The position numbers and the translations under genes were made by a program. Below, one piece after another: positions 6,159 through 56,226 of a stretch of DNA of 64,000 nt (positions are counted from its first letter, which is position 1; every line of letters begins with the position of its first letter). The stretch spans positions 22,904 through 86,903 of the IMG/VR virus record IMGVR_UViG_3300025697_000013; one strand, written 5' to 3'. The notes beneath the pieces were generated by a model. The model made no database searches, was not told where the DNA came from, and was given only the letters and a program-made list of their open reading frames with translations. Origin of the DNA: a virus.

Positions 6159-7724
6159 TCACAGGTCTACCGCCATGGCCACCGCTACCGGGCGCACCCA
6201 GATCGGGGTGTCAGAGATCAGTTGGCGCTGCCCGGTCCATGCAAGCAGCAGGGTCTGCCCGATCACCGAGGCGATGGCCTGGGCAGCCGGGGCCGGGACG
6301 GCGTTGCCGATCCGCGCCCGCCACGCGCTGTGCGCTTTGCCGTCCAGGTCGAAGTGCTCGTTGGGCTCCACGAGGCCCTGGAGCGCGGCCAGCTCCAGGG
6401 TGGTGAACGGTCGGTGCCAGGTCCCGTCAAGGGCCCTGATGATCCAGGCGCCGTTCTGTGTCGGGCTCGGGAGCTCCGTTGCATCGGGCACGCGGGGATC
6501 AGATGTCCGGTCGGACTTGATCCTGACGCGTGGGTCGGCGAGGGCGAACGCTCCCTGGCCCGTGGTGCTCGCCGAGATCACCGTGCCTGTGGACTCGTCC
6601 CAGTCCGTCACTCTGTACTTGGCATGATCCCAGTTTTTCGATCGGGGATCGGCGATGGAGAACTTTCCGCTGGTGGGCTGGCCGCGGGAGCAGATCGCTC
6701 CAGATGTCTCCTCCCAATCCATGACCCCGAGGCAACTCTCGAAGCCGCTCTGGTGGCGCGGGTCTGCGATGGCCTGGCCTCCGGCAGAGGGACCTCCTCC
6801 GCTTGTGACGGCGCCGGATGGCCCGTCCCACTCGACGACCCGATAGATGTTACGGACGGGGACGATCCCGTAGTCCTTGAGATTCCCCGCCTCCACCTCG
6901 AGCCGTTCCAAGGAGCGCCAGTCCGCGCCGGCCTGGACGAACGCGAGACGCACCCAGGTCCTCCATTGGAGGCGGGGGCTGTGGTGCATCGGGCCAGCGC
7001 GGGGATCGTCCGGGAGCGGGAACCGGCCGAGCACGTCCCCGACCGTGAGCAGTTTCTTCTTCGGCGGCTCGTAGAGGAAGGGCGGCACCTTCTCGCGGTG
7101 GCGAGCCACCAGGAGGAAGCGCTTGCGTTTCTGCCCCAGTCCCCCGAGCTCGCCGCAGTCGTGGGTCGTCTCGGCGACCGCGTACCCGTACTGCTGTAGG
7201 ACCCCAATGATCTGATCCAGGAAGTGCCTGCCGCGGGTGAGGATCCTGGGGACGTTCTCCATGATGAAGAACGCGGGCGGGTCGTCCTTCCACGCCTCGA
7301 GCGCAAGCCAGAAGCCCCGGATGGTGAGCCGATTCAGCGCCTGATACTTGTCGCTCCCGCTCTTGGCCGCGCTCAGGAGGCCCGAGTAGCCCTTGCACGG
7401 CGGGCTCGTGAAGACGACGTCCGGACGTCTGCCGCCGGCAGCGCGCTGGAGATCCTCGGGCGAGGCCTCCCGCCAGTCGTCGGGTGGCTCGTGGCCGTGC
7501 CAGTCGATGTACTGATCCCGGTCGAAGAGATCCAGATACGTGCCCGGGACCCCGGCCAGGACCCGGAAGTCGGCAAGAGCAGCTCGGTCGGTGTCCACCC
7601 CGCCGATGCAGCGGAACTTGGCCGTCACCCGTCCCACCCGGGCCTGGCCTGCGTTGAACCCCTTGGCCCCTCCACCCAGTCCACAGAACAGGTGGAAGTG
7701 CTTGATCTCCCTCCTGTCGATCAC
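6159..7724 (-). CDS. C5-cytosine DNA methyltransferase
   Basis: 521 aa. Motif I FHLFCGLGGGAKG (residues 10-22), motif IV SPPC with catalytic Cys110, motif VI ENVP (156-159), motif VIII QKRKR (198-202), motif X RIGNAVPAPAAQAI at the C-terminus. Residues about 295-400 contain three tandem units ending in IADPR or LADPR, in the target-recognition area. It would protect phage DNA from restriction. GTG 7724 is the start, overlapping the RecD TGA by 4 nt; an in-frame extension upstream reads through the recD gene and is not used. Confidence 0.9.
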   Translation of the reverse strand: MIDRREIKHFHLFCGLGGGAKGFNAGQARVGRVTAKFRCIGGVDTDRAALADFRVLAGVPGTYLDLFDRDQYIDWHGHEPPDDWREASPEDLQRAAGGRRPDVVFTSPPCKGYSGLLSAAKSGSDKYQALNRLTIRGFWLALEAWKDDPPAFFIMENVPRILTRGRHFLDQIIGVLQQYGYAVAETTHDCGELGGLGQKRKRFLLVARHREKVPPFLYEPPKKKLLTVGDVLGRFPLPDDPRAGPMHHSPRLQWRTWVRLAFVQAGADWRSLERLEVEAGNLKDYGIVPVRNIYRVVEWDGPSGAVTSGGGPSAGGQAIADPRHQSGFESCLGVMDWEETSGAICSRGQPTSGKFSIADPRSKNWDHAKYRVTDWDESTGTVISASTTGQGAFALADPRVRIKSDRTSDPRVPDATELPSPTQNGAWIIRALDGTWHRPFTTLELAALQGLVEPNEHFDLDGKAHSAWRARIGNAVPAPAAQAIASVIGQTLLLAWTGQRQLISDTPIWVRPVAVAMAVDL

Positions 7725-16558: not shown

Positions 16559-17773
16559 CTATCCCTCCGTCCCTTGGTGCCGCTCATAGTCGTAGTTGGG
16601 CGAGTCGGGATAGCACTTGCCGCAAAGCCGCACGCCGACCTTGCCCGCCGTCCATCTGGCCTGCTTCTCCGTGACCTCCTCGGTGCATCCGCACGCACAC
16701 TCGCACCGGAGGACGCTGGCCTTCGGGGCGGCCGTGGCAGTGTCACCCGCTGCGTGGGGGGGCGCGGGGCGGCCGTCACCAGCGTCCGGGAAGTCCTGCT
16801 CCCTGGGTGGCGTGGCATCGATGACCCGCCCGGGGGGACCGTCGTCGTCCGGCGCGCTAACGAGGTCCGCATCCTCGTTGGGAGGCGCTTCCGCCTCGTC
16901 GGGAAAAGCCACCGAGTCGACCCCCTGGCGTACCGCTGGGTCCGACGCCCCATGCAGTGCGGGGCGAGCGGGCTGCTCTCCTGTTGCGCGTCCGCCGTCG
17001 TAGAGGAGGTCCGTCATCCCTAGCGCCTTCGCCGCGATCATCCGGTTGATCTCCGGGTCGTCCGGCGGGGAGAAGACCATCTTCATCACCAGGAACGGCT
17101 TCTTCAACTCGGCGGCTCCGTACGAAGTCTTCACCCCGAGGAGGGCACGGATCAGCCGCAGCATCGCCTTCGTCTCAGCCATGGATTCGATGTGCTCCCG
17201 CGTCGCCCACACCCGCTCCCAGGCGTCGACCTTCTTGGATTGGCGTTTGTCCTGCTTCGCGTAGTAGTCCTCCGTCTTCTGCGCGGCCCTATGCATGTTC
17301 CGCACCAGCGGCGACTCGTCTCGCAGGTCTATCTCCTTCGTCCCCATCATCTCTATGGGGGTACCGTCGAACGTCGTCATCTGTCCGACCACTCGGTACC
17401 GGCAGTAGTGTGGATTCAGCCAATCATCCAGGCGCCCGCTCTTCTCCGGGATGAATGTCACACCGGAGGCCGCCGACAGCTTCAGGAGCATGGGCTTCGA
17501 CAGGCCCAGCTCGCCGCCCCCTGGGATCTTGTAAACCCAATTGTCCCGGGGGTCGGTGGACGGCACCGAGACAGCGGTCACCGCGGGGGTGAACATCGCT
17601 GGACACCGTTGCAGCATCGCCGGGGTCACGAGGACGTTGTGTCCCCCCTCCATCCCCTGCTTCACGAGGCTCATGGCCTCGACCACCTCCGCAGGCACCA
17701 CTGCCGTCCGGGTCTGACCAGCGGGCACCATCTCGCGCCCGGGATCCTGGGTTGTCTTCTTGTCGTCGGCCAT
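16559..17773 (-). CDS. Unknown recombination-module protein with C-terminal Cys cluster
   Basis: 404 aa. Not confidently recognised. Residues about 75-250 contain ELGLSKPMLLKLSAASGVTF, YRVVGQMTTFDG, then EHIESMAETKAMLRLIRALL, reminiscent of single-strand annealing proteins (Rad52/Erf/Sak type) in which an 'AeTrAl.RAlr' helix follows a beta-hairpin core. The last 50 residues carry six Cys (357, 359, 361, 363, 384, 387) of zinc-ribbon type. Neighbours (SbcCD, Cas4-like nuclease) support recombination. Nuclease or ATPase motifs are absent. Confidence 0.5.
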   Translation of the reverse strand: MADDKKTTQDPGREMVPAGQTRTAVVPAEVVEAMSLVKQGMEGGHNVLVTPAMLQRCPAMFTPAVTAVSVPSTDPRDNWVYKIPGGGELGLSKPMLLKLSAASGVTFIPEKSGRLDDWLNPHYCRYRVVGQMTTFDGTPIEMMGTKEIDLRDESPLVRNMHRAAQKTEDYYAKQDKRQSKKVDAWERVWATREHIESMAETKAMLRLIRALLGVKTSYGAAELKKPFLVMKMVFSPPDDPEINRMIAAKALGMTDLLYDGGRATGEQPARPALHGASDPAVRQGVDSVAFPDEAEAPPNEDADLVSAPDDDGPPGRVIDATPPREQDFPDAGDGRPAPPHAAGDTATAAPKASVLRCECACGCTEEVTEKQARWTAGKVGVRLCGKCYPDSPNYDYERHQGTEG

Positions 17774-18622: not shown

Positions 18623-19452
18623 TTGTCCTCCTCTACGATCATCGCCGGGGAGAAAAGCGGCGCCTCGCCGTTGATCCGATCCCGGCCCATCTCTGCGTAC
18701 TTTGGATTCAGTTCGATCCCGATACAATCGCGACCCAGCTTGTCTGCAACAAGGCCCGTGGTCCCGGCTCCGAAGAATGGGTCAAGGACGGTGCCGCCAG
18801 GAGGACAACCCAACTCAATGCACCGTCGCGCCAGCTCGGCTGGCATCATCGCCGGATGCAGAGCAGTCCCATCGGGGCATATCTGCCAGCATGATTTGTA
18901 TCGCCACGATTCCTTGACCTCTTCGGGCCAATAGTATTTCTTCGATTTGACCAGGTGGGCGACGTACTCATGGGACTGGCTCACCCTGTCGGGCCTGGCT
19001 GGTTCAGCGCTCCGCTTCTTGTCCCATGCAATCACGATCCGCAGATACCATCCAGCCTGACGCAGAGCATCGAAGACCTTGGACGGGAGCAGCGTCACGT
19101 CCTTGTCCTTGTAGCCGTCAGGGGCTTTGCGCCACCCGAGATTGTCTACAATGCCGCCCCATGCCTTCCGGCCTTTGAGCTTGCCTCCACCACCGCAGCC
19201 GCCAGAAGACCACTTTTCGCCTATGTTGAGCCACAGGGATCCGTCGTCGGCAAGTACCCGATGCACATAATCGAACACCTCAACCATCTTGGCGATGTAG
19301 GCATCAGGGTCATTCTCTGCGCCACACTGGCCCTCTACCCCGTAGTCTCTGCATCTCCAATAAGGCGGGCTCGTCACGCAGCAATGGACGGACTTGGAAG
19401 GTAGCTCGCGCAGCCGTTCGATGCAATCCCCCACCAGAATCCGAACCGTCAC
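18619..19452 (-). CDS. N4-cytosine/N6-adenine DNA methyltransferase
   Basis: 277 aa, beta-class order: motif IV TSPPYW (27-32) comes first and the SAM motif DPFFGAGTT (224-232) is near the C-terminus. TSPPYW is commonest in N4-cytosine enzymes but also occurs in N6-adenine ones. First gene after the 19.6-kb promoter and therefore early in the replication operon. No paired restriction enzyme is present, so it is probably a protective orphan enzyme. Confidence 0.88.
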   Translation of the reverse strand: MTVRILVGDCIERLRELPSKSVHCCVTSPPYWRCRDYGVEGQCGAENDPDAYIAKMVEVFDYVHRVLADDGSLWLNIGEKWSSGGCGGGGKLKGRKAWGGIVDNLGWRKAPDGYKDKDVTLLPSKVFDALRQAGWYLRIVIAWDKKRSAEPARPDRVSQSHEYVAHLVKSKKYYWPEEVKESWRYKSCWQICPDGTALHPAMMPAELARRCIELGCPPGGTVLDPFFGAGTTGLVADKLGRDCIGIELNPKYAEMGRDRINGEAPLFSPAMIVEEDK

Positions 19453-45948: not shown

Positions 45949-46893
45949 CTACGCGTAGGTGATCCCGGTTCCCTTGGTGATGCCCTCTTCCTCACCGAAG
46001 GTGCAGTCGGTCCGCACCGAGATCAGGATGTAGACCACCCCGTCCCGCTTGCTGACCTCGTGCTCCACCTCGACCTTCCGCTGGAAGCCGACGATGAAGT
46101 TCTTGGGGTTCCCCATGAGCGCGGTGGTCTCGTCGTGCCCGCTTCCACCGTCCTCGGGCATCACGGGCACGCCCACGATCGGCATCCCCTGCCACTTCGG
46201 GGCCATGCCCTCGATGGCAGCACGATCGCCCGCGGGGGTTCCGCGCTCGCCGATCTGGTCCGCGTACTCGGACTCCGCGTCGGAGCCGACGTAGTTGACC
46301 ATCTGCTTCTTGTTCTTCCGGTGGGCCTTGGGCACGGTTGCCCACATCGCCTTGAAGACGTCCTTGCTCACCAGGTCCCCGCCTGCGGCGTAGACGTTGG
46401 AGGTCGCCTTCGTGATCCAGCCGTCCAGGATCCCGAGGAAGGGATCCCCACCGGAGATGTATCCGTTGAGGAACAACTCGTCAAGGTCCAGGCCAGCCCG
46501 CTCGACCATGAGGGAGGTCACGGTGCTCAGGAACTTCTTGCCCTCGATGTTGTCCTCGAACACCTCCTTCGGGATGTCGCACTCGCCCTTGAGGAGCTTC
46601 GAGGTCAGGGTATCGCGGCTCAGGTCCGGAGCCACCCGGCTGCCCGATCCAACGGCGGAGCCGGAGGTGCCCGCAGCCAGCACTCGGGCGGAGGTGAATC
46701 CTACCTTCTCGACCCGGCGCTCCGGGTTCTTCATTGTGAGGACCCGGGACTTCGGGAGGATGGTGGAGCTGGCGATCAGCTTTTTGAGAAATAACTTGGC
46801 CTGCTCGGGAACCAAAACACCACCGTCCGTGGTGAGGTCCCCAAGGGCCATGTCTGCCTTCTGGATCCAGGTGCGCGCGTCATCCATTTTCAA
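45949..46893 (-). CDS. Major capsid protein (HK97 fold)
   Basis: 314 aa. HK97-like segments: N-terminal TTDGGVLVPEQAKLFLKKLI, E-loop region with GKKFLSTVTSLMVERAGLDLDELFLNGY, P-domain, and the C-terminal VGFQRKVEVEHEVSKRDGVVYI strand. GAGGAGTTGAAA ribosome site. No long N-terminal delta domain remains, consistent with the separate scaffold-like protein upstream. Confidence 0.92.
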   Translation of the reverse strand: MKMDDARTWIQKADMALGDLTTDGGVLVPEQAKLFLKKLIASSTILPKSRVLTMKNPERRVEKVGFTSARVLAAGTSGSAVGSGSRVAPDLSRDTLTSKLLKGECDIPKEVFEDNIEGKKFLSTVTSLMVERAGLDLDELFLNGYISGGDPFLGILDGWITKATSNVYAAGGDLVSKDVFKAMWATVPKAHRKNKKQMVNYVGSDAESEYADQIGERGTPAGDRAAIEGMAPKWQGMPIVGVPVMPEDGGSGHDETTALMGNPKNFIVGFQRKVEVEHEVSKRDGVVYILISVRTDCTFGEEEGITKGTGITYA

Positions 46894-46970: not shown

Positions 46971-47861
46971 CTAGGTTCCGGCAGCCATATCCTCGGCCAC
47001 CTCGTCAGCCAGATCGAGACCCCAATCCGTGTTGTCCTCGTCGCCGCCACCACCGCCAGCGTTCTTCCGAACGCCATCCCTGGAGAATTCTTCATCGGGG
47101 TCCAGGGCCCCTCTGCTGAAGGTCCGAGCCTTCAGCGCGCGCACCTGGCGATTTGAGTCTGCGATCTGGTCCGCCAGTCGACCGTTGCGCCCCTCCAGCG
47201 CCTTGCAGACATCCTGATAACCTGCGATCAGGCCCTTGGCCTTCTCGAGGTTTTCGCGGTGATCGGCGCCGCCCACAGCAGCCTTGCCAAGAAGGCCCTG
47301 CAGGAGCGCACGGAGTTCACTCGTTTCCTTCTTCTGGTCATCGGCTGGGGTCGTGGCCGCCTTGCCGTGCACCAGGCCGGGGTGATCCCCCTTGTGGATG
47401 TCCAGGACCAGACCGAACGCCTTCCCGATGGTGGCGATGGACTCCGCCAGATCAGCGGGGAAGACCACGTCGTCCGGGAACATGTTGCGGTCCTTCTGGA
47501 CCTTGCCCAACGCGTCGTCGAGCTTCACGAAAAACTCCCCGATGTGCTTCAGCATCATCTGGAGGTTCTCGACCACGACAGGGTGGCTCTTCATCGTCGA
47601 GAGATCCGGCACCACCAGATCCGACAGTTCCCAGAGCGGCATGAGCGGCAGGGCCTCCCACGCGCTCTTGAGAGTCTTGTCGTCCTTGGCCACGGCGTTC
47701 GAGTAGATCCCGCTCTTCTTGAGTTGGTCCTCCTCGCCCTCGCCAGGGAGATCGGCCTTGATCACCACGAACTTCTCGCCGTTCGCGGCGCGCCCGACGA
47801 TGGAGACCTCTTCGATGTCCATGTCCGAAAGCCGGGTCCGCTTCATCACTTGTCGCAGCAT
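46971..47861 (-). CDS. Scaffold-like protein beginning with the XkdF C-terminal strand
   Basis: 296 aa. Residues 12-35 (LSDMDIEEVSIVGRAANGEK then FVVIKAD) match the conserved 'EvSlVd..AN....vvK' strand that in XkdF-type prohead proteases closes the protease itself. The rest is helical and acidic with a coiled part, like capsid scaffolds, ending in a Gly-rich hinge and an acidic tail. ATG 47861 has GGAGGAG overlapping the upstream stop, so it is translated by re-initiation in the +1 frame. May complement the upstream protease in trans. Confidence 0.65.
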   Translation of the reverse strand: MLRQVMKRTRLSDMDIEEVSIVGRAANGEKFVVIKADLPGEGEEDQLKKSGIYSNAVAKDDKTLKSAWEALPLMPLWELSDLVVPDLSTMKSHPVVVENLQMMLKHIGEFFVKLDDALGKVQKDRNMFPDDVVFPADLAESIATIGKAFGLVLDIHKGDHPGLVHGKAATTPADDQKKETSELRALLQGLLGKAAVGGADHRENLEKAKGLIAGYQDVCKALEGRNGRLADQIADSNRQVRALKARTFSRGALDPDEEFSRDGVRKNAGGGGGDEDNTDWGLDLADEVAEDMAAGT

Positions 47862-47865
47862 ATCT

Positions 47866-50037
47866 CTACTCCTCCGGCGTCCGCTTCGCGCGACCACCGA
47901 TCGAGAACCCCGTCAGCTTCCCGGCCTTCACGTCTGCCCACATCTTGTCGTCGAGGATCTTCCAGCCCTGCAGCCAGTCGCCCTTCTTGATCTTCACAGC
48001 CTTCCCGTCCGCTGCCTCGGGCCCCGGGATCTCGAAGTCGGCCAGGGCCTGGAAGTTCTCGACCAGGACCACGCGGTTTCCCGCTGCCTCGCGGTGGAGG
48101 AAGCCCTCCTTGTGGCCCTTCTCCATCCAGGAGAACATCGCCTCGCGGACCGCGGCTTCGTCGTAAATGTCGCCCTGCTTGTCCTCGATGTTCGCCCGCA
48201 AGACGAAGCCCAGGACGTACCGCTCCTCTTTGGCGGGGTCTGCCTTCTTCAGGAGGGTGCAGTGGTGCTGCTTCTGGGTCGCGTCCCCAGGGGCCCCCTG
48301 CCCGGTCATTGCCGCACCGCACTCGGGGCACTTCATCTCGTTGCATGGCGTACTGCGATCGTGGGCCACCTGTTTTCCGCAGGCGGGACACACGCACTGC
48401 TCTGCACCACCATCTCCCTCTGGCCCCCCGCCCTGCCCCAGCGCCTTCTCCATCTGCGTCCGGAGGTTCTCCGGGAGCAGCATGTCCAGCGCGTCCTTCT
48501 CGTCGAAGCGCGGCTTGATCCCGAGCTTCAACTCGCGCTCCACGATGCGACCGTGGACAATCTTCCGATCCGCATCCTGCGGGTATCCCGCTGCGAACTG
48601 CTTGAACCTGATCCGGGCATTCCGAGCCCGCTCGACGGTGTCGCAGGGATACATGAGATTGCAGGGATCCCCGTAGTCCTCAAGGTCCTTCGACCAGCCG
48701 GCGGGGAACGTCAGCCGCTCCCCATGCCCGTCGAGTGCGGAGATCCCCCACTTCTTCGAACGAAGCGCCTGGGACTCCCGCTTCTCGTCGGGGGTCATCG
48801 ACGGGGCAGGGACCAGGTCCACAGCCTTCCCGATGCTCTCGGCGAGACCATTCAACATCGGTGCGTCGAACCCGACCATCTCGGCCAGGCCACGGATGCC
48901 GTTCTTGAGTCGCACCAGGTCCTCGTCCGGGACATTGCCCTTCAGCACCTGGTGACCGGCGATCGATGCCTGGAGGATGCGTTCGAGGGACACCGCGTCG
49001 TCCGTGATCTCACTCGGCACCAGGCGGCCAAGCCCGGTAGCAAGATCCTTGAGCACAGGGAGCACGTCCGTCAGCATCGGGACACCGGAGGCCAGCACCG
49101 CGGCCTGCGCGGCGGTGATCTCCACCCGCTGGTCCTTGCGCATCATGGAGACGGTCTTCACGTCGAAGTTGGTGATGGTGAACATCACGCCGGTGCTTGC
49201 TCCAACACCCATCGGGAGCGGCTTCGACACCGTATGCTTCTTGACATTCAAACCCTTCCAGATCCCCATGTCCCCCTTGTCGCCGTAAGTGATCAGGAAC
49301 TTGGACTTGAGCGTCTTTATGAACTCTGCGTAGGGCTTCTCGTCCCACTCCTTCTCGCCGACGTTCTGCCCAAATCCATGGTAGGGAGGATCGTGGAACT
49401 GGAAGGTGTCGGGACCGTCGAATTCCTTGCAGACCTTCTGGTAGTCCTCGCACCGGATCACCACACCAGCCAGGCGCTCCTTCGCCTCTTTCATTCTGCC
49501 GATAGCCAACGGTGGACGTTTCGTCGGAGTGCCAACGCGATTGGACGTGCGTGAACTCTCATTGCCTTTACCGAAAAATGAGACCAGTTTCAGCAGCAAG
49601 AATTTATGGAACCGCTCCACGTCCCCTGTCGGCTTGCCGTTGCGGAGAGCATCGAATGCAGGCTTTGAGTCAGCGATCCACCACTTCATGCCCTCAAGTT
49701 TCTTCAACTGCGCGCTGGTCACCCCCTGGACGAACCGGAACCCGAAGGCGATCTCCGGATCCAGGTCGTTCAGGACCTCTTTCTCCACGGGCTCCTTGTT
49801 GAAGAACATCGCCCCGGAACCTGCGAACGGCTCGACGTAGACCTTGTGCTCCGGGAACATCTTCAGGAGCGGCTTGGCGATCGCGCTCTTGCCCACAAGG
49901 GACCTCCACAGCACAGCCATCTTCCGGACGTGGTCGGGTCCGAACATGCGGACCAACTCTCGCTCGTCCTCGATGAGATCCTTGAGCAGGAATTCGACGA
50001 GGCCGCCGCTGCCGGTGTAGTCGTGCTGGGGGTCCAT
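47866..50037 (-). CDS. Dam-like (D12) methyltransferase fused to XkdF prohead protease
   Basis: 723 aa. Residues about 45-290 are a D12-class N6-adenine methyltransferase: VEPFAGSGAMFF (68-79, SAM site) and DPPY (216-219, catalytic). Residues about 290-430 are of unknown type; about 440-545 (WGISALDGHGERLTFPAG, VERARNARIRFKQFA) resemble DUF6582-like capsid-associated regions. Two zinc knuckles CVCPAC/CNEMKCPEC lie at 548-573. The end (606-723) is XkdF-type S78_2 protease: VLGFVLRANIEDKQGDI, His648 in FLHRE, GDWLQGWKI, Ser712 in GFSIGG. Sole prohead protease candidate. Both catalytic domains look intact, so the fusion may put methyltransferase into the capsid. Confidence 0.85.
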   Translation of the reverse strand: MDPQHDYTGSGGLVEFLLKDLIEDERELVRMFGPDHVRKMAVLWRSLVGKSAIAKPLLKMFPEHKVYVEPFAGSGAMFFNKEPVEKEVLNDLDPEIAFGFRFVQGVTSAQLKKLEGMKWWIADSKPAFDALRNGKPTGDVERFHKFLLLKLVSFFGKGNESSRTSNRVGTPTKRPPLAIGRMKEAKERLAGVVIRCEDYQKVCKEFDGPDTFQFHDPPYHGFGQNVGEKEWDEKPYAEFIKTLKSKFLITYGDKGDMGIWKGLNVKKHTVSKPLPMGVGASTGVMFTITNFDVKTVSMMRKDQRVEITAAQAAVLASGVPMLTDVLPVLKDLATGLGRLVPSEITDDAVSLERILQASIAGHQVLKGNVPDEDLVRLKNGIRGLAEMVGFDAPMLNGLAESIGKAVDLVPAPSMTPDEKRESQALRSKKWGISALDGHGERLTFPAGWSKDLEDYGDPCNLMYPCDTVERARNARIRFKQFAAGYPQDADRKIVHGRIVERELKLGIKPRFDEKDALDMLLPENLRTQMEKALGQGGGPEGDGGAEQCVCPACGKQVAHDRSTPCNEMKCPECGAAMTGQGAPGDATQKQHHCTLLKKADPAKEERYVLGFVLRANIEDKQGDIYDEAAVREAMFSWMEKGHKEGFLHREAAGNRVVLVENFQALADFEIPGPEAADGKAVKIKKGDWLQGWKILDDKMWADVKAGKLTGFSIGGRAKRTPEE

Positions 50038-50096: not shown

Positions 50097-50813
50097 CTAC
50101 TTGTCGCTGCCATCGTCGTTCAGGTCGTAGCCCCAGCCTCCGTCGGACTCGCCGCCGAAGCCCTTCGAGATCTCCTCGAGGTCGTCGGCAGCCTTCTTCA
50201 GGTCGTCGTCGTCCTTGCCCTTGGGGGTGCCCCGGAGCTGCGCGAGCCGATCCTTGAGCTTCTTCTTGTCGTCGTCGGAGAGGTCTTCCTTGGCCTTGGC
50301 CTTGGCCACGTCGAGGTCGGCCTGGAAGTCGGTTTTCGCCTTGGCGAACCCCTTCTTCTTCTCCTCGTCCTCACCGCCGGTGGCGACCTTCGCGCCGCAC
50401 TCGGGGCAGGCGCCGTCCTTGAGGTCGTCGCTGGATCCCTTCCAGTTGCACTTGGGGCACACGACATCCTCCTTGGCGACCGTCCCCTGCAGGCCCTTGA
50501 GGATTTCCTCTGCCTTGGTCAGGTTCTCGTCCCCGCCGGCGGCGCCCTCGGCCTTGGCCACCTTGAAGGCAATCTCCTCGTCGGTGCCCTTGCCCGCGTC
50601 GATGGCCTTGAGCACGGCCTCGATCATCGGGGCCTTCTCCTTGGCTACCGCGGCGAGCTTGCCCTTGTCGCCGCCGGTCTTCGCCACCGCGTCGGTGATG
50701 TCGGCGATGGCCTTGCCGACGGTCATCTTGGTCTCGTCGCCAGTCTGGGTGCCCTCGCCCATGGCCAGCAGCCGCTTCAGCAGATCCGCGTTGCTCTTGA
50801 GTTCGTCGCTCAT
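50097..50813 (-). CDS. Head-region protein with zinc ribbon, 238 aa
   Basis: Helical, Lys/Glu/Asp-rich protein with a zinc ribbon in the middle (CPKCNWKGSSDDLKDGACPEC, two CPxC knuckles, about residues 125-148). Composition is scaffold-like. ATG 50813 has GGGAGG upstream. It and the neighbouring fusion protein are the only two head genes with zinc knuckles, which may mean they interact. Confidence 0.55.
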   Translation of the reverse strand: MSDELKSNADLLKRLLAMGEGTQTGDETKMTVGKAIADITDAVAKTGGDKGKLAAVAKEKAPMIEAVLKAIDAGKGTDEEIAFKVAKAEGAAGGDENLTKAEEILKGLQGTVAKEDVVCPKCNWKGSSDDLKDGACPECGAKVATGGEDEEKKKGFAKAKTDFQADLDVAKAKAKEDLSDDDKKKLKDRLAQLRGTPKGKDDDDLKKAADDLEEISKGFGGESDGGWGYDLNDDGSDK

Positions 50814-51296: not shown

Positions 51297-52688
51297 TCAG
51301 ATCACCGGGACGGTAGTCGTGCGGCAGTAGCCATGGAACGGTGGGTAGCCAACCCCGCTGTTTTGCATGGCCTGATCAGAGACCGAAAACTTGAAGACTC
51401 CATCCTCGCCACGACTTCCCAGACTCACACGTTCCCCACCAGGTGGCTTGATAAACATCTCCCCGCCACTCTGCCGAACCCACGGGGCAGCCCGCTTGAT
51501 CTCCTGGGGATCGTCCCACCCCGACCGATCCTCGAACTGGCGCATTGACGTCCCAACGTCGAACTCCTTCCCGTGCAGCTCCTGGCAGATGACAGTCGTC
51601 TGCTCATCGAGCACCGCCTCGATCTGGTACCGCTGGATCCCCGCCTCGCTGTACGACGAGATCTGCCCGTAGCTCCGCGAGTCCTGCATCCATGCCTGGG
51701 CACACAACTCAGCGTAGGCCCGTCCACGTCCGAAGGTCTTGTCCGACAACCAAACCGATTCAAGACGCCGCGCAACCTCTTTCGATCCCAACCCGTCAGC
51801 AAGCGCAGCGGTCACAACACGCTGCCCCTCCCTGGTCATCCGGTCCCGCAGTTGTCTCTTCCGATCGGTCAGGTAGTGCCCCGCCAGATCCTGGACCGAC
51901 CCCACGATCCGCCTGTCAATCAGATTCATCGAGGTCCGCAGATCCATGCCAAGTGCCGTGCCCACGCTCTTCCGCGTCCCGAGCACCACCGACTCGCCAG
52001 TCGTGAACACCGAGCGCTTCACCCCCGCGGACGTCACCGCCGTAGCGCCCACTGCCCCCACGCCGGCGGCCGTCGTGCCCAGCAGCTCCACCCGCTCATC
52101 GGAAGATAGATCCTGCCAATCCACCTCCGCCATGCCGTCCAGCGCGCGGATCATCACCGCCCGCTCCTCCCGCTCCAGCGGATCGTTGATCTCAGCGGTG
52201 AGCTCTCGCACGATCCGCGCAAAGTCCTTCGCGTCATTCGGGTCCAGCGGCTTCTTCGGGGCCTTCTCCACTGGGGCCCCGGCACCGAACGCCTCGAGGA
52301 CCTCGTCGAGTGCGGCCATGCCGGCGTCGAGGAGGTCTGCCTCGGTGCATGGCACCATCCGGCTCGCCACCACACCCACGCCCCCCAGCGGGCTGCAGGC
52401 AAGGACACGGACTCGGTCCACAGGGTTCAATCCGAGTCGGACGATCCGCTCCGCCTTGCGCATCCCCGCGCCAAGGTGCAGGACCGGCCCATCGAGGGTA
52501 TTCTCGACGAGGACGAAGCGCTCTCCCTGGACAGCGACACGTTCGCCCCCGAGCAGAAGCATGCCCTCTGCCGCGGTAGCGACCTTGCGCACGCCCCCTG
52601 GTCCCCACACCCAGTGCCCATCCGCCTTCTCGACGAGGACCGCTCGAGCGCTCGGCCGGATCTCGATGGTTTCATTACAGCATTTCAC
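51297..52688 (-). CDS. Head morphogenesis protein, Mu F / SPP1 gp7-like
   Basis: 463 aa. The MuF signature is near the C-terminus: a helical stretch then RYQIEAVLDEQTTVICQELHGKEF and PPFHGYCRTTTVPV. The N-terminal 130 residues are a separate beta-rich domain (ERFVLVENTLDGPVLHLGAG). Minor capsid protein attached to the portal. ATGA-type overlap with terminase end couples it. Confidence 0.8.
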   Translation of the reverse strand: MKCCNETIEIRPSARAVLVEKADGHWVWGPGGVRKVATAAEGMLLLGGERVAVQGERFVLVENTLDGPVLHLGAGMRKAERIVRLGLNPVDRVRVLACSPLGGVGVVASRMVPCTEADLLDAGMAALDEVLEAFGAGAPVEKAPKKPLDPNDAKDFARIVRELTAEINDPLEREERAVMIRALDGMAEVDWQDLSSDERVELLGTTAAGVGAVGATAVTSAGVKRSVFTTGESVVLGTRKSVGTALGMDLRTSMNLIDRRIVGSVQDLAGHYLTDRKRQLRDRMTREGQRVVTAALADGLGSKEVARRLESVWLSDKTFGRGRAYAELCAQAWMQDSRSYGQISSYSEAGIQRYQIEAVLDEQTTVICQELHGKEFDVGTSMRQFEDRSGWDDPQEIKRAAPWVRQSGGEMFIKPPGGERVSLGSRGEDGVFKFSVSDQAMQNSGVGYPPFHGYCRTTTVPVI

Positions 52689-54247
52689 CAGTCGTCCCCC
52701 CCCGCGATGGCCACCGACACCTCGGCGCCATCATCGTCGTCCCATTCATGCCAGAAGTCGTCCTCCTCGTCGTACTCCCGGAGCACGTCCTCGAGGATCG
52801 ATCCCCCGTAGACGCCGACCACGCAGAGGGCGCCCTCCACGAATGCGTCCATGCAGTCGTCGGTCACGTAGAGCGGGAACTCCGTCAGCTCCGAAACGAG
52901 GTCTCCGCGCTCCTGTGTGACCTTGTCCGCCAGCGGGTCCAGGTGGTCGGCGAAGATCACGTTCCCCGTCTCGACGTATGGCGAGACCTCCAGAAGCCTC
53001 GTCCCCTTGTCCTTCTGCGGCTTGAATCCGAACACCGGGATCATCGTGACCCGCTCCAACTCCTGGGCCAGCGCCTTCTGGTACCCGATCGTCTCGATGA
53101 CCACCCGCCGGGCCCGCCACTTCAACCAGTCCCCGATCACCCGTTTGAACTGCTGGTAGAACGTCAGCCTGGCATGCCCAGCCCCGACCACGAAGATCTT
53201 CTTCTCGCTCGGGCTCCACCCCAGGATGCACCACGCGAAGTAGTCGCTCCTCGTCTTGTCCTCGATGGCCAGATCGTACGCGGTGATCATGTGCAGGTCG
53301 TCGGGGAAGTGCCGATACGGCCGGTACTTGATCCACTCCGGCTGGATAACGATCACGTCCCCGCTCAGAGCAATGTTCCGGAATCCTCGATCGAACTCCA
53401 CCTTCCCGATCTTCTTCCGCTGCCTCACCAGTGCAAGGTGCGACCAGACCTCGGGCCAGATTGGATCGAGGGCCTCGTTGATCGCGTACTCCCGGATGGC
53501 GTAGATCCCGCGCTTGTTGCGGAGGAGCTCGTGGGTCAGGTCGTCCTTGTGCCACTTCGTGGCGATGTACCAGGTCCGGCCACCAGGGAGCAGGAGGTTC
53601 GAGAAGTCGCCCTTGTAGGCCATCTTCACATTTTCGCGCTGCTTCGGCTGCAGGATCGCGTTCCGCCGGTCCACCACGTCGTCGTAGACGTTGAGGTCCG
53701 ACCGCCCGCCGGTCGCGGTGCTCAGGACCCCTAGCGCGTGCACCGACGCATCTCGAGCGACGATCGTCCGCCGGATGAAGAGCTTGTGCTTCGACCACTC
53801 CCCCTTCACCGCAGCCATCAGCCCGGGGAAGACGAACTTCACCCTCACATTACCCTCGATGTGCTGCTGGATCTCAACGAGGCGCTCCTTCGCCTTGTTG
53901 TCCGACTGGCAGACGATCTTCACCCGCAAGTTCGGGTCCTTCCCCAACTCCCAGATAATCCGTCCAATTATCTGGCTCGTTTTCCCATGTCCACGAGGGC
54001 CAATGATTATGCAGTCCTCGTTGTGGGTCAGGAGGTCCTGCCACTCCAGGTGGAACCACGCCTGCTTCATCGGCTCGCCCTTCTCGGTCTCGAAGGCGTA
54101 CTCGATGAATGCGTTGGGGTCAGTTCGCAGCCGCCGGCGGAACAACTCCCGCTGCGCCAGGAAGCGGAGCATCGCCAGCTTGACTAGCTTCTGTCGCTTG
54201 GTCAGGGGCTCGAAGTGGCCGGGGATGGTGGGGGATCGCTGTGGCAT
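52685..54247 (-). CDS. terL: Terminase large subunit
   Basis: 520 aa. Walker A GPRGHGKT (83-90), Walker B LNVYDD (185-190), then the RNase H-like nuclease (ITAYDLAIEDKTRSDYFA with catalytic Asp; ETIGYQ; a DDCMDAFVEG motif). Pumps DNA into the procapsid. The ATG shares one base with the portal stop (TGATG); a GTG just upstream is possible. Portal-terL order is reversed from the usual. Confidence 0.95.
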   Translation of the reverse strand: MPQRSPTIPGHFEPLTKRQKLVKLAMLRFLAQRELFRRRLRTDPNAFIEYAFETEKGEPMKQAWFHLEWQDLLTHNEDCIIIGPRGHGKTSQIIGRIIWELGKDPNLRVKIVCQSDNKAKERLVEIQQHIEGNVRVKFVFPGLMAAVKGEWSKHKLFIRRTIVARDASVHALGVLSTATGGRSDLNVYDDVVDRRNAILQPKQRENVKMAYKGDFSNLLLPGGRTWYIATKWHKDDLTHELLRNKRGIYAIREYAINEALDPIWPEVWSHLALVRQRKKIGKVEFDRGFRNIALSGDVIVIQPEWIKYRPYRHFPDDLHMITAYDLAIEDKTRSDYFAWCILGWSPSEKKIFVVGAGHARLTFYQQFKRVIGDWLKWRARRVVIETIGYQKALAQELERVTMIPVFGFKPQKDKGTRLLEVSPYVETGNVIFADHLDPLADKVTQERGDLVSELTEFPLYVTDDCMDAFVEGALCVVGVYGGSILEDVLREYDEEDDFWHEWDDDDGAEVSVAIAGGDDW

Positions 54248-56226
54248 CACAGCTCAGTGTCGGGGGGGGCTTCCGGATCGGGCTGCACGATGCGCTGCAT
54301 CTCTGCCCACGGGATCTCCATCCGGAGGACCTGGTCGTCTCCGTCCCCGCCGCCGCCGCGGAGTTGGACACCGCCCTTCTGCGCATCGGCGATCGCCTGC
54401 TGAAAGGCCACCAGCCGATTCACGGCCTCGTTGATCCGGCTCGGGTCGGTCCCCTCGGTGACACCAGGACCTGCAATGCCTTCGCCGCCCTCGCCGGCAC
54501 CTGCGCCGCCGGGCTGGATCCCCGCCAGGGTCATCAGCATCGGTTGCTTCGTCCAGGGCTCGTCGATCTCGGGCAGTTCCGCGTTCAGGATGTCCGCTGC
54601 CTGGTCCCGGACCTCCCCGGGGACAAGCCCACCCGCCTTCGACAGGATCTCCACGATCTTCGCCTGGGTCTCTGGATCCCTGGTGATGGGGCTCCGGCTC
54701 CGCATCCGCACCAGCCGGTACTCCCTATCACGGAGGAACCCGTCGAACTCGTCGTCCCACTCCGCCCTCGTCGGACCCGCCACCATGTTCTCGAACATCG
54801 TCAGGGCGGCTGAAGCTGTCGCCCTATTGTAGTCCCCGGCGGCGCCACGAAGGATCCTCGGCACTCGCAGGGTCTCCGCTGCCTTGTCCCGGTTCGTCTC
54901 GTCGTACTCGAGGAACGTCGCCTCGCTCTGCTGGTAGAGCCGCTCGAACACGATCTCCACCTTCCCGGTACTCCCCGCGTTGACCGCGCCCTTCGACTTC
55001 GGAGGGAGGGCCTCGAGGATCAGCACCTTGTGACGATTCTTTCGCCCACGCAGCTTCTTGAAGTGCTCGGCAATGACGGTGTCAGCCCCGCTCTTCAGCT
55101 TCCCGCCGTTCACCAGGATTGCGTAGGGAGGGATCGCAGACCCGTCGAAGAACACCAGGTTGACCTCTTCAGCGGCGATGCTCCCCGCCACTGACCGGAT
55201 CGCCCCGTACCACATCGGCATGCCCCACACGCTCCGGCTGTCCGGGACGAGGAAGTGGTAGATCTCCGTCGCCTCCTGGTCGGCTGCCGCATCCGCATCG
55301 TCCGACTGGTTGTCGGCAAGATGCTTCTCCCATGCCTGCTCGTCCCTGAAGTACTCCCCCGTCCGCCGACTCATGATCCGAGGGTCACCGTACTCCTTGA
55401 ACCAGACCTCCTTCCCGCTCTCCAGCACCTGCGCCCACTTCCGGAACCGACGCCAAACCTTCCGGGTCAGGATGTTCAATCCCACCCGAAGCTTCTCCGC
55501 CACCTCGATCGGCTCCTCGTCCTGCTTCGTCGGCGCCAGGCGCAACATCGACACCCAGGCGAACCGGGAGGGCTTGTCGTTCAGGTCACGCATCACTTCG
55601 ATCGCAGCGTTCCCCAACCCCACCCACTCGTCACGAATCCGGCTCCGCAGGTACACCAGGCTACGGCCATCGTCCACCACGGTCTTCGCCCACACCCGAC
55701 AGCCAGCCATCTCCTGCCGCAGCCGGGCCATGTACTCGCTCTTCTGCTTCTCGAGGTCGGCACCCTCGGGCCACACGGGATCTTTCTTCGACTTCCCCTG
55801 CTCGAACAGGTACACCCGCTCCTCGAACACCAGCGCAGCCAGCTTCGCTTCGAAGTCCTCGGCCTCCGGATTCAAGATCGGCTCCACCACCGCGCCGAAC
55901 GCATCCACCGTAGCGAAGTAAGCCCGCGCACACTGCCGCAGCACATTCGAGTTGATGTACGTGATCCACAGCCCGTCCATCGGCATCGGAGGACGAACGA
56001 ATCCCTTCGTGCTCCAGCCGTCCTCGCCCAGGGCCCCAGCCCCCCACATCTGTGAGTCCTCGAGGGAAACACCGGCGCTCGTCGCCTTCATCACCTGCAG
56101 CGCAGTCCCGCCGTCAAGCCACTCGTCGCCAGTCAGATCCGGGGCGTCGGTAGTCCGGGCGTCGACCTCCGTCTTCACGGCACGACCATGTCTACCAGGC
56201 CTCTTCTTCACGCCGGCTCCGCTCAT
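54247..56226 (-). CDS. Portal protein
   Basis: 659 aa. PBSX/SPP1-like portal features: DSRSVWGMPMWYGAIRSVAG, ILVNGGKLKSGAD, LRVPRILRGAAGDYNRATAS, LTMFENMVAGPTRAEWDDEF. C-terminal Gly/Glu-rich tail with a possible crown helix. Forms the dodecameric ring through which DNA passes. No fused protease or MuF segment. Confidence 0.9.
   Translation of the reverse strand: MSGAGVKKRPGRHGRAVKTEVDARTTDAPDLTGDEWLDGGTALQVMKATSAGVSLEDSQMWGAGALGEDGWSTKGFVRPPMPMDGLWITYINSNVLRQCARAYFATVDAFGAVVEPILNPEAEDFEAKLAALVFEERVYLFEQGKSKKDPVWPEGADLEKQKSEYMARLRQEMAGCRVWAKTVVDDGRSLVYLRSRIRDEWVGLGNAAIEVMRDLNDKPSRFAWVSMLRLAPTKQDEEPIEVAEKLRVGLNILTRKVWRRFRKWAQVLESGKEVWFKEYGDPRIMSRRTGEYFRDEQAWEKHLADNQSDDADAAADQEATEIYHFLVPDSRSVWGMPMWYGAIRSVAGSIAAEEVNLVFFDGSAIPPYAILVNGGKLKSGADTVIAEHFKKLRGRKNRHKVLILEALPPKSKGAVNAGSTGKVEIVFERLYQQSEATFLEYDETNRDKAAETLRVPRILRGAAGDYNRATASAALTMFENMVAGPTRAEWDDEFDGFLRDREYRLVRMRSRSPITRDPETQAKIVEILSKAGGLVPGEVRDQAADILNAELPEIDEPWTKQPMLMTLAGIQPGGAGAGEGGEGIAGPGVTEGTDPSRINEAVNRLVAFQQAIADAQKGGVQLRGGGGDGDDQVLRMEIPWAEMQRIVQPDPEAPPDTEL

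Follow-up and report, generated by a model that had tools for sequence, protein, structure and literature searches.

Why would a viral gene join a DNA adenine methyltransferase to a putative prohead protease in one polypeptide? The gene in question lies on the minus strand of a 64,000-nucleotide stretch of the IMG/VR virus record IMGVR_UViG_3300025697_000013, referred to here as the window. Spanning 47866..50037 (ATG at 50037, stop codon at 47866–47868, GGAGG 9 nt upstream of the ATG), it comprises a methyltransferase, a middle part, two zinc knuckles and a protease. The first-pass annotation described it as one uninterrupted gene of 723 codons, which the open frame confirms, and all of the motifs named there (VEPFAGSGAMFF, DPPY, FLHRE and GFSIGG) are present in the protein. 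In the domain search that it proposed, Pfam finds both MethyltransfD12 and Peptidase_S78_2, each above its cut-off.

At the start of the chain is a 17-residue peptide (MDPQHDYTGSGGLVEFL; residues 1–17, 49987..50037, minus strand), which is conserved as far as the diverged relative L033 and is a possible capsid-targeting peptide. Beyond it is a D12/Dam-type adenine methyltransferase domain (residues 44–293; 49159..49908, minus strand), delimited by Pfam, a profile search of the PDB and a structure model. Pfam family PF02086 matches residues 49–221 (E = 5e-16, 59.6 bits versus a cut-off of 22), and an NCBIfam Dam match covers residues 49–242, with TIGR00571 under its subfamily cut-off (56 versus 115 bits). 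In the PDB profile search, residues 44–293 align with a solved adenine methyltransferase (PDB 7m6b), and part of the domain aligns with DpnM and Dam; Foldseek returned Dam, DpnM and T4Dam for the modelled domain (E of 1e-11 to 1e-7). The first structure model was useless (pLDDT 36); the second, built with 28 relatives, is of use chiefly in the two enzymes. Within the methyltransferase domain, its confidence is good over most residues and low at 45–49, 156–172, 223–228 and 275–280. SAM motif I (VEPFAGSG, residues 68–75; 49813..49836) and catalytic motif IV (DPPY, residues 216–219; 49381..49392) were placed by alignment. Located between them is a predicted target-recognition hairpin (residues 156–178; 49504..49572), which aligns with the hairpin of DpnM and is the most divergent part of the domain; in Dam enzymes this hairpin reads the base sequence of the target. 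Family profile, motif I, DPPY and fold all agree with the Dam-like assignment made at first reading. No helicase match was found in the fusion with Pfam, PHROGs or NCBIfam, and it is thus not a methylase–helicase of the DarB type.

Following the methyltransferase is a helical middle part (residues 297–420; 48778..49149, minus strand), defined by alignment and the structure model. DUF6582, which the first-pass annotation also suggested searching for, matches the window protein weakly (48538..48678; 13.9 bits, below the cut-off of 27.3), but is significant in the relative L080 (E = 8e-20), where the order methyltransferase, DUF6582, protease is the same as in the window. Two CPxC zinc knuckles (C550–C573; 48319..48390, minus strand) were found in the sequence as claimed, the pairs being C550–C553 and C570–C573. 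Closing the chain is an XkdF-type Peptidase_S78_2 domain (residues 597–719; 47881..48249, minus strand), with a Pfam match (E = 1.7e-18, 67.3 bits versus a cut-off of 24) that spans positions 6–124 of the 126 in the profile, in keeping with the earlier description of the protease as complete. H648 and S712 are conserved. Most of this domain, too, is modelled with confidence in the second structure model, and Foldseek relates it to XkdF-family viral models; no PDB relative was found by sequence. Judged from their sequence motifs, the active sites of both enzymes look intact. Production of a separate protease from an internal start was considered and rejected, as there is no convincing conserved start site: upstream of the protease, the window and L004 share only two SD-preceded internal starts, TTG at codon 503 and GTG at codon 192, the latter within the methyltransferase.

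The full-length frame is also present in three other IMG/VR contigs (100%, 91% and 74% identity), and L033 encodes a diverged 565-residue fusion without the DUF6582 and zinc parts (45% identity to the window protein; the capsid protein of L033 is 48% identical to that of the window phage). A hunt for the same fusion elsewhere, as had been advised, yielded 40 IMG/VR loci with one open frame; the design is widespread among uncultured phages. Although the window is one metagenomic record, the recurrence of the frame in the three contigs, in the diverged L033 and in 40 loci altogether shows that it is not an assembly chimera and already refutes an assembly or gene-calling artefact, to which we attach practically no weight.

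The surroundings of the gene are those of a head operon. On the minus strand, the order is portal protein (54247..56226; Pfam and PHROGs), terminase large subunit (52685..54250; PHROGs), Mu-F minor head protein (51297..52688; Pfam and PHROGs), a 139-residue protein, a zinc-ribbon acidic protein directly upstream of the fusion (50097..50813), the fusion, a scaffold-like protein with EVSIVGRAANG near its N terminus (46971..47861) and the major capsid protein (PHROG 1623; 45949..46887). The capsid-operon location given at first reading is thereby upheld. In capsid-related cultured phages (DLP5, RcZahn, RHph_Y1_11, and Vibrio and Agrobacterium phages), the slot of the fusion is occupied by a standalone protease of about 200 residues. 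A profile search identifies the fusion as the sole S78_2 protease of the window record, in which no S78 protease was found either, so that maturation most likely depends on the fused protease; from its family name and gene position, the XkdF-type domain is most likely the maturation protease. Each of the 10 fusion records examined, that of the window included, has a single S78_2 protease, which is the fused one. The fusions of L069, L076 and L078 also have portal, Mu-F and PHROG 1623 capsid genes as neighbours, as found in a scan that took in part of the genes in each locus. The fusion crosses capsid lineages, as the capsid protein encoded beside it in L114 belongs to another family (PHROG 10/617).

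Related W(P/G)xD tails often end the proteins flanking the fusion, with ..WP(L/M)DLN.. in the scaffold and ..WGxDP.. or WGYDLND in the small upstream protein. In the window they are at 50100–50140 (WGYDLND, zinc-ribbon protein) and 46971–47030 (W..DLAD, scaffold-like protein), and they recur in L004, L033, L061, L062, L067–L079 and L091. The shared tails are possibly a capsid- or portal-binding tag; within the fusions themselves, no such tail was found as a cleavage or targeting mark, nor was a cleavage site found. Outside the capsid operon, the record encodes three further DNA methyltransferases, one C5 and two N6/N4 enzymes, the fusion being the fourth; they are located at about 6258–7700 and 18688–19389 of the window (both minus strand) and at 17095–17661 of the record, outside the window.

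The 40 fusions come from an IMG/VR scan with methyltransferase motifs, in which 80 loci were kept and four earlier loci were added to the count; they include a few near-duplicates (L002 is identical to the window), and, being drawn through the methyltransferase motif, they show the fused share of such methyltransferases rather than of XkdF proteases. Their lengths range from 434 to 1784 residues. The methyltransferase is N-terminal of the protease in all 40, separated from it by a linker of 15–1060 residues, and the protease is C-terminal in 39, with at most 32 residues after it; in the exception, L089, an inorganic pyrophosphatase domain follows the protease. All 40 retain motif I (FAGxx), a DPPY or DPPF motif and the region around the His and Ser of the protease, and E69–G73, D216–Y219, D619, H648 and S712 are invariant in a 28-row alignment. 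Larger members add an ATP-dependent DNA ligase (L064 and L104), a 2'-5' RNA ligase/2H domain (L081) or the type I Thoeris inhibitor Tad3 (L058; E = 1.8e-8, passing its cut-off), and extra D12 stretches occur in L058, L064, L075 and L080. L095 instead has a methyltransferase of this lineage attached to a Mu-F domain, and its S78_2 protease is encoded separately, downstream.

A tree that includes 25 standalone Dam-type phage enzymes places a branch with 100% support between these and the methyltransferases that are fused or otherwise multidomain. Of the 39 fused proteases, 28 group in a single clade of the protease tree (support 88%). Many subclades are common to both trees, a match consistent with a long shared history of the two domains and some gains or losses. 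Other layouts were also seen: in L057 (3487–5998) the protease is a separate 236-residue frame and a DUF6582-like domain lies in the next gene, and in L037 (6706–7959) the protease is N-terminal in a 418-residue frame, which indicates that modules have been shuffled among phages. Large proteins of L088 (4537–8742), L097 (1341–5339) and L102 (4617–8774) combine a D12 methyltransferase with an ATP-dependent DNA ligase and a metallo-beta-lactamase-fold domain, and no S78_2 was detected in them. S78_2 proteases with N-terminal extensions of about 170–210 residues, matching no known family, are encoded in L049 (3488–4435), L051 (1199–2128) and L053 (4545–5618).

Among described proteins, PHROG 13242 (450 columns, function unknown) contains both domains, with the D12 methyltransferase at columns ~23–247 and the S78_2 protease at ~310–430; it is unnamed and undescribed, and the window protein differs in its additional DUF6582-like middle and zinc knuckles. 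The first-pass annotation knew of no described system with this architecture, a statement that is wrong or incomplete in view of this PHROG, the 40 loci and the polyvalent proteins of Iyer et al. In open-access text, we found no literature on a D12–XkdF fusion or on any fusion of a methyltransferase with a maturation protease. In a collection of 50,697 phage records, none reaches 80% coverage of either query protein, and the matches listed include no fusion of this kind; a bacterial genome collection scanned with the family motifs gave nothing, by a pattern method that reaches close kin only.

Several cultured phages carry names that suggest the fusion, and these candidates were rejected. The 'DNA methyltransferase' proteins of Pseudomonas phages PAK_P1 and PAK_P3, encoded by gene 3 in both, are only 156 and 138 residues long, and the 'DNA methyltransferase/prohead protease' of Rhizobium phage RHph_Y1_11 only 212; the two of these three that were translated contain no methyltransferase motifs. 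The product of PAK_P1 gene 3 aligns with PHROG 1530 in the protease part alone. Many related Pseudomonas phages bear the 'DNA methyltransferase' label on their protease match, and the name looks like a misannotation; we suggest correcting the entries for PAK_P1, PAK_P3 and probably many relatives, which carry a protease so labelled. PHROG 1530 and PAK_P1 proteins resemble the window fusion in having, at the corresponding place in the operon, a homologous S78_2 protease, and differ from it in that the PAK_P1 protein consists of the protease alone.

A comparison with the closely related sibling L003 (IMGVR_UViG_3300031601_000062) shows that the methyltransferase domain has been exchanged between the two phages. 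Aligned across 10,957 bp of the head region, they differ at 229 positions, of which 178 fall inside one block (49194..49986, minus strand); outside the block, identity is 99.5%. The rate of difference is 21.8% within 49150–49960 versus 0.5% outside (Fisher p of about 1e-158). Starting after codon 17 and ending at about codon 281, the block corresponds to the methyltransferase domain, and the N-terminal peptide lies outside it. Differences are concentrated in the hairpin: relative to L003, 12 of its 23 residues are changed versus 43 of the domain's other 221 (p = 0.001), and relative to L004 the values are 17 of 23 and 64 of 221. With a dN/dS of about 0.2, the exchanged domain is under purifying selection and not in decay. 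Exchange was rejected as a general rule, as none of the other close fusion pairs compared has such an island; it is seen in one pair only. At the opposite end of the L003 contig (19042–19530) is a second, separate D12 methyltransferase (289-residue frame).

The gene is best explained as a compact phage polyvalent protein. Polyvalent proteins were defined by Iyer et al. 2017, with DNA adenine methylase among their fused domains, and assemblin-like peptidases, when present in them, are always C-terminal and probably process the protein during assembly (PMC5512222). The window protein likewise unites unrelated enzymatic domains in one chain encoded among virion genes, and its larger relatives contain 2H or inorganic pyrophosphatase domains. 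Its own peptidase is C-terminal and may belong to the assemblin-like superfamily. It differs from most polyvalent proteins, which use zincin metallopeptidases and whose methylases usually resemble DarB and come with an SWI2/SNF2 helicase (PMC5512222), in joining a bare D12 enzyme to a serine protease of the XkdF type. DarB of phage P1 is a methylase–helicase located in the head, to which its N terminus targets it, and is believed to reach the cell interior, where it would act against restriction (PMC9024508). Carriage in the head would be the feature shared with the window protein; DarB differs in its size (250 kDa), its helicase and its own N-terminal targeting signal, and in not being fused to a protease.

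Packaging and injection, an option raised in the first-pass annotation, are the most sensible reading of the fusion. The protease domain would enter the growing prohead, as maturation proteases do, and because it must do so, the attached methyltransferase would be carried in with it. During maturation the protease would cut itself free, leaving the methyltransferase inside the head; on infection, the enzyme would exit with the DNA and methylate the incoming genome at host restriction sites, before or during restriction, in the manner proposed for P1 DarB. By swapping only the methyltransferase domain, and chiefly its hairpin, siblings could change the motif and keep the carrier. That the window phage uses its protease to bring an antirestriction methyltransferase of switchable specificity into the prohead, from which it is later injected, is, in our estimate, slightly better than an even prospect; its extension to the lineage as a whole, with the maturation protease loading the enzyme and siblings exchanging the methyltransferase domain alone to change motif, is put forward tentatively, at somewhat short of even. 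Two observations on the relatives support delivery: Tad3, 2H phosphoesterase, inorganic pyrophosphatase and DNA ligase, the companions of the fused enzymes, are conflict or nucleic-acid enzymes, and the Mu-F carrier of the same methyltransferase lineage in L095 points to the virion. The reading also draws on the conserved single frame and domain order, the retained active sites, the fused protease as the sole S78_2 of each record examined, the head-operon setting, the separation of the lineage from standalone enzymes, the domain exchange, the other methyltransferases of the record, and the published precedents of polyvalent proteins and P1 DarB.

The chief rival has the methyltransferase acting late in the producing cell on replicated progeny DNA, the fusion serving only to express the two together or to keep the enzyme near the site of packaging, with its release by autocleavage. 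The gene lies in a late head operon with an ordinary start site, phage Dam-type enzymes are mostly ordinary modification genes, SAM is available in the cell, and a methyltransferase expressed late could equally protect progeny DNA. The record, however, already encodes two N6/N4 enzymes and one C5 enzyme elsewhere, so that progeny methylation does not rely on the fused enzyme alone; the fused lineage is distinct from standalone enzymes; the Tad3, 2H and pyrophosphatase companions fit early infection; and the L095 Mu-F carrier again argues for the virion. We consider late methylation possible but rather unlikely.

It is improbable that the methyltransferase domain is a passenger, or a DNA-binding or structural module with dispensable catalysis: a linker of such variable length requires no tight structural coupling to the protease, but motif I and DPPY/F persist in every fusion, and the low dN/dS of the exchanged domain speaks for selection on it. 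Hardly probable, too, is a head-coupled epigenetic mark, placed on the genome while it is being packaged, at the prohead or within it, although the first-pass annotation had also raised marking at packaging; the physical link to a prohead protease in the head operon favours such a mark, but we know of no SAM supply inside a filling head.

Outside the methyltransferase family, Arthrobacter phage Waltz gp18 (PHROG 14859; L010, 3332–4450) has a 2H/RNA-ligase-type enzyme N-terminal to its S78_2 protease, and differs from the window protein in its enzyme, lacking a methyltransferase. It is annotated as hypothetical, whereas 'aldolase class I' is the name given to its homologues in related phages. 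As the product of a cultured phage, gp18 offers a cultivable model for protease-carried cargo.

If delivery by the protease is correct, the two sibling alleles of the methyltransferase should methylate different motifs, and a capsid-building protease would double as the loader of enzymes that act in the next cell. A sequence rule for virion-carried anti-defence proteins would follow, in which the part that precedes an XkdF protease in a fusion counts as cargo; the cargo list so far would comprise methyltransferases, Tad3, 2H phosphoesterase and DNA ligase, with inorganic pyrophosphatase placed downstream in one member.
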